Part shown: positions 22,976 to 28,126 of the stretch, one piece after another | Layout: the number at the start of each line of letters is the position of its first letter | Position numbering within the stretch: the stretch's first letter is position 1 | Source: a virus | IMG/VR virus record: IMGVR_UViG_3300042559_000447 | Span: 1-64,000 of that record | Strand: one strand, 5' to 3' | DNA length: 64,000 bases | Notes under the pieces: model-generated | Database searches by the model: none | What the model was told of the DNA's origin: nothing | The model's input: the letters and a program-made list of their open reading frames with translations, nothing else | Position numbers and translations under genes: made by a program

Positions 22976-23256
22976 AAAAGATATTTAACTACATTAAGAT
23001 GATTCCACATAACCATGTGGATTGGGTTCCTTTTGAACCAAAACCCATGCCTTACTTTACTTTAGATGTAGACGCAAGAGATGACTGGTATGCAAGACAA
23101 CACACAGAACATTGTAAAAAACTAACTCTCAAAAAGCCTCTTAGGGCCAAGATAGATAGAACAATTTGGTTTTTGGTTTATTCGTCGTTTATGTTAGGTA
23201 TTATGTTTCTCACAGAATATCTATTTGAAATGCTGTACAAATATTATCATCCATGA
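22972..23256 (+). CDS. small membrane protein
   Basis: 94 residues with a polar N-terminal 60, then one or two membrane-spanning stretches near the end (IWFLVYSSFMLGIMFLTEYLF). It overlaps the recombinase gene by 4 bp. Function unknown. Confidence 0.6.
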   Translation: MKKIFNYIKMIPHNHVDWVPFEPKPMPYFTLDVDARDDWYARQHTEHCKKLTLKKPLRAKIDRTIWFLVYSSFMLGIMFLTEYLFEMLYKYYHP

Positions 23257-23945
23257 AAAGAGCAGCGATTTACACAAGGGTATCTCACACTAACCAGGTG
23301 GAGGACGGATCATCTATAGAGAATCAAACAGAAAAGTTAAATGCTTTCTGTAAGGTAAAGAACTATAAAATAGTTGCAGACCTGAGCGATGCCGGTATCT
23401 CTGGTAGAAAGTTTGAAACTCGCCAAAACTTCATGAAGATGATGGATATGGCGAAGAATAAACAGATAGACGCTGTAGTTGTTTACTCTCTATCTCGTTT
23501 TGGTAGAAACTTAAAGGATACACTTAAGTGGATTGAATATCTAGAGAAGCTAGGGGTATCGTTCTACACACAAGACTTTCAGGTAGACACCACAACATCT
23601 CATGGTAAACTGATGCTTCAAATGATAGCAGCCTTTGCAGAGTTTGAGTCTAATCAGAGATCTGAACTTATTACATCTGTAATGTCTCATCTTAAGAAGA
23701 ACAAGAAAGTGTACTGTGGTCCTACTCCATTAGGCTTTGATAAAGTTGGAGATGATTTGGTTCCGAACCCCCAGGAACTTTTGATAGTCAGAAGGATTTA
23801 CCGGATGCGAGAAGAAGGCGATCATCTTGAGGTTATAGCCAATACTCTTAATGATGAAGGCTTAATTGGTAAAAAGGGTGGGCGGTTTCAGAAGATGACA
23901 ATATCAAAAATATTAAACAACAGCATTTATAATGAATACAGATAA
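23253..23945 (+). CDS. serine recombinase (truncated large type)
   Basis: 230 residues. The resolvase domain is intact: AAIYTRVSHTNQ with catalytic Ser11, then YSLSRFGRNLKDTLKWIEYL near residue 78, and GKLMLQMIAAFAEFESNQRSE near 120. After it comes the start of the recombinase domain (PLGFDKVGDDL, and a helix-turn-helix-like LEVIANTLNDEGLIGKKGG), but the zinc ribbon and coiled coil of phage integrases are missing. It may invert or resolve DNA rather than integrate. No matching inverted repeats were seen nearby. Confidence 0.85.
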   Translation: MKRAAIYTRVSHTNQVEDGSSIENQTEKLNAFCKVKNYKIVADLSDAGISGRKFETRQNFMKMMDMAKNKQIDAVVVYSLSRFGRNLKDTLKWIEYLEKLGVSFYTQDFQVDTTTSHGKLMLQMIAAFAEFESNQRSELITSVMSHLKKNKKVYCGPTPLGFDKVGDDLVPNPQELLIVRRIYRMREEGDHLEVIANTLNDEGLIGKKGGRFQKMTISKILNNSIYNEYR

Positions 23946-24259
23946 TGGAAGAGTTAGTAATGCACCTAGCAAGAATCATCTACAGGTTAAATGGTCTTTC
24001 ACAAGAAGATAAAGATAAAATTATTGAACTTGTAGAGGAAACTAAAAAGAAAAGTAGTAAATTTGTCCCCCCTACAATAGAGGAGGTAACACAATATCTT
24101 AAATCAGAAAACTATTCAAGCCCATATAAATATGCAGAGCAGTTTGTATCTTTCTATGGAGCGAAGGGTTGGATGATAGGGAAAAACAAAATGAAAAATT
24201 GGAAATTAGCAACTAAACAATGGAAAGAATGGGAGAAGAAAACAAAAGTATTGGTTTAA
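23945..24259 (+). CDS. replication-associated DNA-binding-like protein
   Basis: 104 residues. The C-terminal 50, PTIEEVTQYLKSENYSS then FYGAKGWMIGKNKMKNWK, is a segment often seen at the ends of replication proteins in Bacteroidota phages and conjugative elements. It precedes the DnaA domain IV gene and overlaps it by 40 bp, consistent with a replication start role. This is inferred. Confidence 0.55.
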   Translation: MEELVMHLARIIYRLNGLSQEDKDKIIELVEETKKKSSKFVPPTIEEVTQYLKSENYSSPYKYAEQFVSFYGAKGWMIGKNKMKNWKLATKQWKEWEKKTKVLV

Positions 24260-26321: not shown

Positions 26322-26441
26322 TTAGCCAGCAGGCCACTGGATCGAAAACAAGGAAGCTTCCCATAAGAACAGCAGACCTTCTGAATCGTTAGTCAGCATA
26401 GTTATCAGGTTCTATGGATGCTTAATGCAAAAACCTGGCAT
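26322..26441 (+). other. noncoding segment before the first tRNA-like unit
   Basis: No gene. It has limited folding: CATAG near 26397 pairs with CTATG near 26412, and GCCAG near 26325 with CTGGC at 26435-26439 could close the segment. It may be an RNA unit like its neighbours, but no acceptor or T arm is clear. Confidence 0.35.
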
Positions 26442-26527
26442 ACCAGAGTGGTGGAATTGGTAGACACATGCGGTGGATTTTAATTGGAATTGCTGCTAAA
26501 TTACAGGTTCGAGTCCTGTTTCTGGTA
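26442..26527 (+). tRNA. tRNA-like unit 1 (leucine-type body)
   Basis: Acceptor ACCAGAG (26442-26448) pairs with TTCTGGT (26520-26526). TG follows, then a leucine-like D arm GTG-GAATTGGTAGA-CAC, and a perfect T arm ACAGG-TTCGAGT-CCTGT (26503-26519). The total length fits a long-variable-arm tRNA. However, no 5-bp stem with a 7-nt anticodon loop can be drawn. The best fit is GCGGT/ATTGC around a 14-nt loop containing TTTTAA. It may be tRNA-Leu(UAA) with extra bases or a mimic. Confidence 0.55.
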
Positions 26528-26528
26528 C

Positions 26529-26666
26529 AAAAAGAATTAGAAGGTAAACGTGAAATGAAGAATTGGAGAATAGGAAGCTGATATTAGTATCAGAAGTTCG
26601 CTGGGCTACCCATCCAGACTGCTAAGCAGATAAATCCTCTCACCTATAAGGAATCTAATTCTTTTT
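26529..26666 (+). ncRNA. folded RNA closed by a 13-bp stem
   Basis: AAAAAGAATTAGA (26529-26541) is perfectly complementary to the sequence at 26654-26666. Inside are CTGATA/TATCAG (26578-26593, loop TTAG), CTGG/CCAG (26601-26617) and CTGC/GCAG (26619-26629). The final T-run could also end a transcript. No T arm or gene is present. Confidence 0.5.
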
Positions 26667-26672
26667 TTAAAT

Positions 26673-26847
26673 AGTCAGGTGGCGGAATTGGTATACGCAG
26701 TGGTGTGTTAAATGTGGGAATAGACATAATCCCTAACCTGATTAACCAACCGATACAACATAAGAAATTAGGTTGTTCATTTGCAGGAAGGTTATTCAGG
26801 CTAACTGCTTGTCTTTTATGTAGGTTTGAATCCTACCCTGACTGCCA
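26673..26847 (+). tRNA. tRNA-like unit 2 with encoded CCA and about 90-nt insertion
   Basis: Acceptor AGTCAGG (26673-26679) pairs with CCTGACT (26837-26843), followed by G and an encoded CCA (26845-26847). TG, then D arm GCG-GAATTGGTATA-CGC, and T arm GTAGG-TTTGAAT-CCTAC (26820-26836). Between D and T arms are about 120 nt instead of 23-35. GTGGT (26700-26704) can pair with ACTGC (26804-26808), putting GTTAAA in an oversized loop. An intron at the anticodon is possible; no group I core was recognised. Confidence 0.6.
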
Positions 26848-26898
26848 AGTTAACCCACTAAGACAAGAAACGGGTGACTGCTGGAAAGACAGCAAATT

Positions 26899-27001
26899 CT
26901 ATAGGTAGTTTAACATGGTAAAACACTATGACACTTGTATCGCCTGGTGAGTACTAACCCGAATACAAGAAGAGTATGCTGGTTCAATCCCAGCCCTATG
27001 G
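26899..27001 (+). tRNA. tRNA-like unit 3
   Basis: Acceptor CTATAGG (26899-26905) with CCTATGG (26994-27000); TA; D arm GTTT-AACATGGTA-AAAC; T arm GCTGG-TTCAATC-CCAGC (26978-26994 region). The middle is about 53 nt and holds a 7-bp stem CTTGTAT/ATACAAG (26934-26940 with 26963-26969) around a 22-nt loop instead of a regular anticodon arm. No CCA is encoded. Confidence 0.5.
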
Positions 27002-27076
27002 ACAAAAAATCGTAGTACCGTGAGGGAACAATATGGTAGAAATAACCATAGCAGGTTAAGCGATATCCTGCAACAT

Positions 27077-27146
27077 AGCCAGGTGGTGTAATGATAAACA
27101 CAACCAGTTTTTGGGAGGGTAGCAGGTTTAATTCCTGCCCTGGCTA
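27077..27146 (+). tRNA. tRNA-like unit 4, compact
   Basis: Only 70 nt. Acceptor AGCCAGG (27077-27083) with CCTGGCT (27139-27145), TG, D arm GTGT-AATGATAA-ACAC, T arm GCAGG-TTTAATT-CCTGC (27122-27138). The 20 nt between D and T arms are too few for a normal anticodon arm plus variable loop; only ACC/GGT pairs around a 12-nt loop with TTTTTGG. All other arms are perfect. Confidence 0.5.
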
Positions 27147-27262
27147 CGAGTGGTGAGAACATCAGTTGCAGCCATAATAGATAAGAGGAAAAGCTTTTAG
27201 GAAGCAAGTCCAAATTGATGCGCAAAATGCGAGGTGTGACGAACGGGGAGAGACCCGTACAT
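27147..27262 (+). other. noncoding folded spacer
   Basis: No gene. CATCA near 27160 can pair with TGATG near 27216, followed by CGC/GCG and by ACGGG/CCCGT (about 27243-27259). It is one of the non-tRNA segments between tRNA-like units. Confidence 0.35.
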
Positions 27263-27425
27263 AGTCAGATAGCACAGGAGTGCACACAATAGACCGCAAG
27301 TCTTTTATTACTGAAGGGAGGTAAGCGGACCTTCAGTAGGAGTGGCCAAACGCTGGTGGTACCTTTGCAAGGGTAGATTAGAGAAAACCACAAATGGTGT
27401 GGGGGTTCAAGTCCCCCTCTGACTT
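27263..27425 (+). tRNA. tRNA-like unit 5 with large insertion
   Basis: Acceptor AGTCAGA (27263-27269) pairs with TCTGACT (27418-27424). TA, a very short D arm GCAC-AGGA-GTGC, and T arm GGGGG-TTCAAGT-CCCCC (27401-27417). The 116 nt between D and T arms include ACAC/GTGT at the junction, an 8-bp hairpin ACTGAAGG/CCTTCAGT (27310-27337) and ACCTT/AAGGGT. No normal anticodon stem-loop is found. The 4-nt D loop matches the minihelix at 14.8 kb. Confidence 0.5.
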
Positions 27426-27620
27426 CAAAGAGAAGTAGTGAAGCTGTAGTAGTATTTAGTAGGCCCCAGCATGAAAAAGGGTTTAGAGTAATGTGCCAAC
27501 CGTTAACTAATACTATCAGTAACCCTGAAAGACCCGAAGCTTCTTTTAAATAGGTGATCTGATACTGACATTAAGTTGGGTGTGAAAGCAGATTAATGAC
27601 TACATCGTAACAGCCTATTT
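27426..27620 (+). ncRNA. two folded segments after the tRNA-like units
   Basis: First, TAGTATT (27450-27456) pairs with AATACTA (27509-27515). Second, AAATAGG (27548-27554) pairs with CCTATTT (27614-27620), followed inside by TG and then ATCTG/CAGAT (27557-27561 with 27589-27593). The second segment looks like a 7-bp acceptor with bases 8-9 but has no T arm. No gene. Confidence 0.4.
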
Positions 27621-27694: not shown

Positions 27695-28126
27695 ATGGCA
27701 TCAATAAGATTAACAGAAGAACAATTAAGAATTATTCAAGAAGCACTTGACTTTTACTCACGAGTGGGTATAGGTCAATTTAATGTAATTAAGGAACATC
27801 CTACATTTGAAAATCAGTTAAAAAAAGAATTTAGAGATGAAGAAGGAAAAGTAGACTACAATAGATATCATGAAGTAAGAGACAATGTAGATTTAATGTT
27901 AGTACAACCAAGAAACATGCTACTTAATGACCTTACTTTACCTAAAAATGCAAGTTGGGGTATATATAACCCAGATGTAGATGAATCATGTAGAGTTGCT
28001 TATGACTTAATACAAGTAATTAGACATGAATTTTGGTTAGCAAACCCAGATAGATCAGAACATGTTGTAATGGCATCTGTACATTTAACAACTGAAGATT
28101 CATATAAAATAAAAGTAAAATTATGA
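27695..28126 (+). CDS. hypothetical protein
   Basis: 143 residues, beginning MASIRLTEEQLRIIQEALDF, a helix common at the start of phage proteins that measure or bind small ligands, with GIGQFNVIKEHPTF after it. It is markedly A/T-rich compared with the replication genes and is the first gene after the RNA cluster. Function unknown. Confidence 0.65.
   Translation: MASIRLTEEQLRIIQEALDFYSRVGIGQFNVIKEHPTFENQLKKEFRDEEGKVDYNRYHEVRDNVDLMLVQPRNMLLNDLTLPKNASWGIYNPDVDESCRVAYDLIQVIRHEFWLANPDRSEHVVMASVHLTTEDSYKIKVKL

Follow-up and report, generated by a model that had tools for sequence, protein, structure and literature searches.

The window analysed here comprises 64,000 nucleotides of a 71,661-base IMG/VR virus contig. 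Between a RyR-domain gene and the gene that starts at 27695 lies a 1.37-kb non-coding stretch, which contains an array of five tRNA-like units (U1-U5) together with a leader, spacers and two further RNAs (Table 1). A CrAss_Ring_2 domain (window:310-954, E 2.8e-9) was found among structural genes with crAss-type domains, where a crAss capsid also gave a weak match. Phages of flavobacteria contain relatives of the primase/helicase. Because of these crAss-type domains and flavobacterial-phage relatives, the host is probably a member of the Bacteroidota. One virus with a related helicase (L002) is without the window segment 24260-31270, which contains the array, and there the homologue of 23945-24259 directly adjoins the helicase. 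A serine recombinase gene (23253-23945) adjoins the same segment in the window. Another related virus (G004/L011), whose helicase is 43% identical, carries its own array of similar units. A crAss tail-ring gene was detected in 3 of 20 further carrier contigs, and some others are contigs of 165-373 kb.

Table 1. Features of the non-coding stretch and its flanking genes, in window positions.
Feature	Position	Strand	Description
RyR-domain gene	25962-26321		gene 5' of the non-coding stretch
Leader RNA module	26322..26441	+	5' of U1; same sequence in L235 and L232
U1, tRNA-like unit	26442..26527	+	acceptor ACCAGAG/TTCTGGT, Leu-type D arm, T arm
s1, structured spacer RNA	26529..26672	+	closing stem AGAATTAGA/TCTAATTCT
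U2, tRNA-like unit	26673..26847	+	AGTCAGG family; 121-nt insert 26699-26819
s2, spacer RNA	26848..26898	+	ends in hairpin GCTG-GAAAGA-CAGC (26880-26893) just 5' of U3
U3, tRNA-like unit	26899..27002	+	53-nt insert 26925-26977
s3, spacer	27003..27076	+	hairpins TATGGT/ACCATA and GCAGG/CCTGC, from folding
U4, tRNA-like unit	27077..27146	+	acceptor AGCCAGG/CCTGGCT; 20-nt middle 27102-27121
s4, spacer	27147..27262	+	hairpins including ACGGG/CCCGT; folding z = -2.8
U5, tRNA-like unit	27263..27425	+	acceptor AGTCAGA/TCTGACT; 117-nt insert 27284-27400 with several helices
D, spacer RNA	27429..27547	+	closing stem AAAGAGAAG/CTTCTTTT
E, RNA	27548..27620	+	closing stem AAATAGG/CCTATTT
Next gene	starts 27695		gene 3' of the non-coding stretch

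Both strands of the window were scanned for units with a fully paired acceptor (7/7), T at position 8, A or G at position 9, a D stem, a 5-bp T stem and the T-loop consensus. The scan returned exactly five units, starting at 26442, 26673, 26899, 27077 and 27263, and nothing else, whereas 30 dinucleotide shuffles of the window gave 2 units in total. Applied to 2.3 Mb of related viral loci, the same scan gave 507 units, normal tRNAs counted in, compared with 0 in one shuffle. These results bear out the sequence-only reading that had proposed five units with 7-bp acceptors and T arms: as in decoding tRNAs, U1-U5 all possess a 7-bp acceptor and a 5-bp T arm with the T-loop consensus. Its claim of intact D arms needs correcting for U5, where the D arm consists of a 4-bp stem closed by four loop nucleotides (AGGA), a truncated D loop without G18G19. 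Unlike U5, four of its relatives carry an ordinary Leu-type D arm.

A canonical anticodon arm (5-bp stem, 7-nt loop and U33) was present in none of the five window units, again as that reading had claimed. The Rfam tRNA model scored U1, U3 and U4 at 39.2, 37.1 and 41.3 bits (gathering cut-off 29), each time with an abnormal insert where the anticodon arm should be, and it did not find U2 or U5 as such. ARAGORN called U1 tRNA-Ser(GGA), with an anticodon stem that is unpaired on our reading, and misplaced U5 under the label 'tRNA-???'. The spans between the D and T arms measured 35, 121, 53, 20 and 117 nt in U1-U5, respectively. They had been described as wrong for a standard anticodon arm, a description that fails for U1, whose total length is that of a normal class-II tRNA; the abnormality of U1 is therefore the missing stem and not the span, its 35-nt middle (26468-26502) being without a canonical arm. 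An identical copy of U1 is present in L235. U2 alone encodes a 3' CCA (G-CCA at 26844-26847). The U3 insert contains a 7-bp stem (CTTGTAT/ATACAAG), and the 20-nt middle of U4, in which a canonical arm would not fit, is treated by the Rfam model as a defective anticodon arm. The independent support for U1 and U4 consists of their arms.

Relatives of U5 were found in six loci (L235, L232, L161, L225, L233 and L234). In the seven-member alignment (A1), 95% of the cells pair, and double-sided changes occur at 16 of the 40 pairs. The number of double-sided cells was 48, compared with 19.8 ± 3.2 after shuffling and at most 6 with the partners slid. These changes are located in the acceptor, the D stem, the T stem and three insert helices, and the unpaired insert segments CGCAAG, AGCGGAC, AGGAGTGGC and AGAGAAAACCACA are invariant across the alignment. 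U3 is 79% identical to a relative in L161, with both sides changed in three acceptor pairs and two insert-stem pairs.

The inserts were also compared between different tRNA bodies. U2 aligned with L216 in two stretches, one of 67 nt (1569-1503) with 98.5% identity and one of 36 nt with 92%; the outer insert is shared (92-98%), the inner insert is replaced, and the T stem is changed on both sides. L215 and L069 agree at 73 of 75 insert positions (97%) and at 6 of 14 acceptor positions. The corresponding values are 49/53 (92%) and 5/14 for L211 and L054, 70/81 (86%) and 4/14 for L162 and L141, and 80/109 (73%) and 4/14 for L221 and L035. Because inserts that are 73-97% identical sit in bodies with acceptor agreement of 4-6/14, these comparisons indicate, for a minority of inserts, that the cargo is conserved while the carrier is replaceable, which we regard as the key result. 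The restriction to a minority follows from clustering, which gave 21 clusters and 153 singletons among the 201 units examined, so that 153 of 201 inserts had no relative in the sample.

The viral collection was searched with general patterns whose counts are lower bounds, and the class is therefore larger than counted; two of the three general scans used a fixed D-arm pattern. One pattern, a Leu-type D arm followed by a T arm 48-78 nt later, gave at least 120 matches. Among 81 that were inspected, 71 combined a T stem paired throughout with an acceptor in which no more than one of the 7 pairs was missing. About one third of the pattern matches listed share one identical acceptor, AGTCAGG/CCTGACT. 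U2 belongs to this family, as do U4 and U5 with small changes. A 26-mer of the family, AGTCAGGTGGYGGAATTGGYANACRC, was present in at least 120 IMG/VR viral contigs, whereas 257 Gb of GTDB genomes contained it in only 3 contigs, a near-absence from bacterial genomes; all three contigs are small and come from assembled metagenome bins, and our guess is that they are of phage origin. A sample drawn on the 3' half alone contained 103 distinct units with a paired acceptor among the matches listed, with TG or TA at positions 8-9 in 93, a strict D arm in 58 and a canonical anticodon arm in 2. Since the remaining 45 failed the strict D-arm test and U5 is without the D-loop GG, the full tRNA elbow is not always kept. 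Units in L114, L204 and L212 carry an extra hairpin in the D loop.

In the AGTCAG family, C74 was present in 198 of 201 units, compared with 122 of the 130 normal tRNAs that share these loci, and this similar retention suggests that the family shares 3' maturation with the co-resident normal tRNAs. A73 was present in 175 of the 201 units. A single unit was found in 58 of 107 AGTCAG-family loci among the matches listed. The exact acceptor AGTCAGG and the T arm ACAGG/CCTGT recur with unrelated inserts (107 loci), for which a sequence-specific partner and gene conversion between units are candidate readings. In L166 (13030-13101) and L199, the AGTCAGG/CCTGACT acceptor belongs to tRNA-Lys(UUU) genes of normal appearance, whose anticodon stems covary (CCGAT/ATCGG versus CCGAC/GTCGG); this body also serves a few real tRNAs. 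Units of the form TCTGGGG...GCCA (L060, L071, L091, L106 and L108) were dropped, as they have normal anticodon arms and a long variable arm, and the similar L137 was dropped likewise (normal anticodon arms, Asn GTT where read).

The sequence-only reading had passed over the spacers, several of which are conserved RNAs and not empty sequence. The s1 spacer is 72% identical over 134 nt (E 5e-9) to L223 568-692, which is likewise a spacer, in a phage contig of 343 kb; its loop GCTACCCAT is identical there, while the stem is CTGG/CCAG in one and CCTG/CAGG in the other, and the s1 pattern was found in five viral contigs. The hairpin of s2, in the general form NNTG-GAAAGA-CANN, recurs at about 17 other sites, usually a few nucleotides 5' of tRNAs or tRNA-like units (in L157, L176, L202, L204, L208, L219, L221, L239 and others). 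Its stem covaries (CTTG/CAAG, GATG/CATC, CCTG/CAGG), and it may be a processing or regulatory element. Relatives of D were found in 16 further viral contigs; in the majority of these they sit between ordinary tRNA genes, bordered immediately by tRNA 3' and 5' ends. This family (L069, L236-L249) is about 120 nt long, with the closing stem AAGAAAAG...CTTTTCTT and the core TGAAAGACCCRAAGCTT; the window copy gave no Rfam match, and we consider D a separate new family of noncoding RNA. A closing pair of E changes from A-T in the window to G-T in L235. The 3' end of s3 matches L102 and L067, which supports an s3 RNA weakly, and no relative of s4 was found. The 15-nt segment AGTACCGTGAGGGAA in s3 (27013-27027) is either a recurrent loop-E plus GNRA motif or a chance occurrence; it presumably resembles a 23S rRNA hairpin.

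The order of these elements differs between related viruses. In the near relative L235, the leader lies 5' of U1, and leader-U1-s1-U2-s2 is followed by a normal tRNA-Gln(UUG) and U5. In L232, the leader directly adjoins U5, a border that is a precise module junction, and E follows directly 3' of U5. D is absent 3' of U5 in both viruses, and in L235 E lies 3' of a short gene. The make-up of L235 and L232 therefore shows that each unit and each spacer is a module of its own, whose gain or loss follows exact borders. The tRNA-Gln(UUG) of L235 replaces U3-s3-U4-s4 of the window after the same s2 spacer; tRNA-like units and true tRNAs are thus exchanged at one site, and the two are mixed in the same arrays.

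We compared the units with known systems, of which two come nearest to their design: transfer-messenger RNA (tmRNA, ssrA) and the engineered tRNA scaffold. The 'tRNA scaffold' of Ponchon and Dardel combines acceptor, T and D arms with an insertion region made from the anticodon arm and is stable in E. coli (PMC3753655). The window units likewise keep the tRNA body and carry an independent structured RNA, comparable to the hairpin-like cargo insert of the scaffold, instead of the anticodon arm; however, the scaffold is a man-made tool, whereas the units are natural, arrayed, hold many cargo families and change acceptors. In tmRNA, too, the top half resembles a tRNA and a large structured insert takes the place of the anticodon arm, but the window units measure 70-172 nt, occur with several different inserts per virus and show neither a tag reading frame nor a four-pseudoknot ring. 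Identity with tmRNA was rejected, as none of U1-U5 has G-U as pair 3-70 (the AGTCAG family has T-A there), and neither Rfam nor ARAGORN called a tmRNA in the window. Phage tRNA clusters share the arrays, the orientation and C74, and members are sometimes exchanged at the same site, yet the units differ by a structured insert in place of a canonical anticodon arm. GOLLD and ROOL are structured noncoding phage RNAs located near phage tRNA islands (PMC12286853), but they are single large RNAs in which no tRNA body closes each unit, and their Rfam models gave no match in the window or in 14 array loci. The 3' tRNA-like structures of plant RNA viruses are also viral tRNA mimicry; they terminate RNA genomes, whereas the units are encoded within dsDNA phage genomes.

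Single tRNA-like genes were also observed in described phages. The cultured Tenacibaculum phage pT24 (LC168164.1) has two near-identical 'tRNA-Undet' genes with an extended hairpin (192032-192110 and 192399-192477) together with a 'tRNA-Pro' whose anticodon loop measures 5 nt (TATAC-GCGGA-GTATA, 192195-192267). Crassphage cr4_1 (NC_055893.1) has an unannotated tRNA-like unit at about 67841-67920 with a 9-nt anticodon loop (CTAAC-ACTGATAAA-GTTAG); upstream of it, GGGGCATTATGGTTTTGACAGCG looks like a tmRNA start, for which ARAGORN makes no call. These genes share with the window units a tRNA body and an abnormal anticodon arm, but their inserts are small, their acceptors differ, and they are annotated without explanation (pT24) or unannotated (cr4_1). 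Rfam searches at the gathering cut-off and at E<=5 returned only tRNA and chance matches, and blastn of the array against INPHARED returned only tRNA-sized chance matches. No description of the class was found in Rfam 15, INPHARED annotation or the open-access literature. The class could thus be previously undescribed, with single cases such as pT24 annotated without explanation, and it could cautiously be filed as a variant of tRNA-like RNA.

Taken together, we consider it rather probable that the five units are members of a virus-specific class of tRNA-scaffolded noncoding RNAs, in which structured cargo is held on a tRNA carrier. The carrier is the tRNA top half, consisting of the 7-bp acceptor and the T arm, usually with positions 8-9 and the D arm, and a structured cargo RNA that differs in each unit takes the place of the anticodon arm (in some relatives also that of the D loop). 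The sequences themselves show this anatomy, the compensatory changes, the use of one cargo with several acceptor stems, the exchange with normal tRNAs and the rarity in bacterial genomes, whereas the processing and action described below are inferred. Being without an anticodon arm, the units should not decode. The acceptor/T-arm half is the part of a tRNA recognised by RNase P, RNase Z, the CCA-adding enzyme and EF-Tu; the array would therefore be processed as a tRNA precursor and its products would be stable. We propose that the array would be transcribed as one precursor, that RNase P would cut the units at the 5' end and RNase Z at the 3' end, and that the units would receive CCA like the neighbouring tRNAs. 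The tRNA fold would protect them from decay and the cargo would act on host or phage targets, while the spacer RNAs freed by the same cuts would perhaps act too. Charging by LeuRS is possible, given the Leu-type D arm and the frequency of A73. As a speculation, the wide variety of the inserts, which are also exchanged between phages, would fit a role as effectors in a contest with hosts.

The tRNA top half might instead be the active part, titrating or being charged by host factors (EF-Tu, an anticodon-independent aminoacyl-tRNA synthetase such as LeuRS, RNase P or the CCA enzyme) or decoying tRNA-directed defences, with the insert merely blocking decoding. The phage-specific distribution and the strong conservation of the acceptor AGTCAGG, A73 and the Leu-type D arm are consistent with this explanation. 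However, it leaves unexplained why inserts are conserved despite acceptor replacement and why their helices covary, and the D arm and D loop can be lost; we regard it as unlikely, though deserving some weight. The mimicry proposed in the sequence-only reading is thus matched by the architecture of the units but not by their conserved inserts. Its proposal of decoys against tRNA-cutting defences, which we retain within this same unlikely explanation, is weakened by the missing anticodon loop, as most known tRNA-cutting defences attack that loop. It is distinctly improbable that the units mainly mark the cuts that release s1, s2, D, E and the leader, on the model of the tRNA punctuation of mitochondria. 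Conserved spacer RNAs with closing stems do lie directly between units, and modules are gained and lost precisely, but a plain tRNA or minihelix would suffice for this role, conserved and covarying inserts would have no explanation, and loci with a single unit are frequent in the AGTCAG family.

An unusual intron near the anticodon had also been suggested, and normal anticodon arms after the removal of group I introns had been named as the outcome that would refute the observation. Such removal does not rescue the tRNAs, and an intron is not borne out as a general explanation. A canonical 27-31/39-43 stem spanning the insert was found in 10 of 173 units, compared with 5.5 ± 2.8 in shuffled sequences. 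Group I and II introns were rejected, as the inserts, at 20-121 nt, do not reach the length of known self-splicing introns, and no Rfam catalytic core scored above the cut-off; the sole intron match, group-II-D1D4-7, reached 16.4 bits against a cut-off of 34. A new type of small intron, whose removal would yield normal decoding tRNAs, would agree with the good 27-31 stem and enlarged loop in L101, L042 and L066, but no intronless allele was found and canonical arms were almost absent from the 3'-half sample, making this very unlikely. General intron removal therefore appears unsupported by these comparisons, and an intron may apply to a minority of single units. Decay of tRNA genes in a phage tRNA cluster would fit the labelling of the units as undetermined or defective tRNAs by the tools and the resemblance of U4 to a tRNA with a shortened anticodon arm. 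In contrast, the perfect arms, double-sided changes, shared inserts and hundreds of examples, with such units in more than 100 other viruses, argue strongly for selection, as originally proposed. Decay is already refuted for U5 and U3 and hardly tenable for the array, although U1 or U4 might still be decayed genes. We give almost no credence to a single ornate RNA of about 1.3 kb, of the GOLLD or ROOL sort, with tRNA-like arms. The stretch is densely structured and non-coding, and GOLLD and ROOL have phage tRNA islands as neighbours (PMC12286853); nevertheless, individual modules have been gained or lost independently of one another in L235 and L232 and occur on their own elsewhere, no Rfam match was obtained, and the folding energy of the whole stretch is unexceptional (z -1.6).

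For the tRNA-scaffolded class, a wider statement can be made to which we assign an even chance: that large dsDNA phages, crAss-like ones among them, harbour an extensive and previously undescribed class of natural tRNA-scaffolded RNAs, in modular arrays with hundreds of cargo families, which would be exchanged between viruses like accessory genes and would serve as RNA effectors during infection. As one cargo is reused with different acceptors, carrier and cargo can be tested separately. If the class is real, its members would be natural, ready-made tRNA scaffolds for the expression of RNA in cells. Genome annotation discards such units as pseudo-tRNAs or undetermined tRNAs, and a layer of phage noncoding RNA may therefore be overlooked. 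If the cargo acts in infection, these RNAs would be the counterparts of the small accessory anti-host proteins of phages, with built-in maturation and protection.
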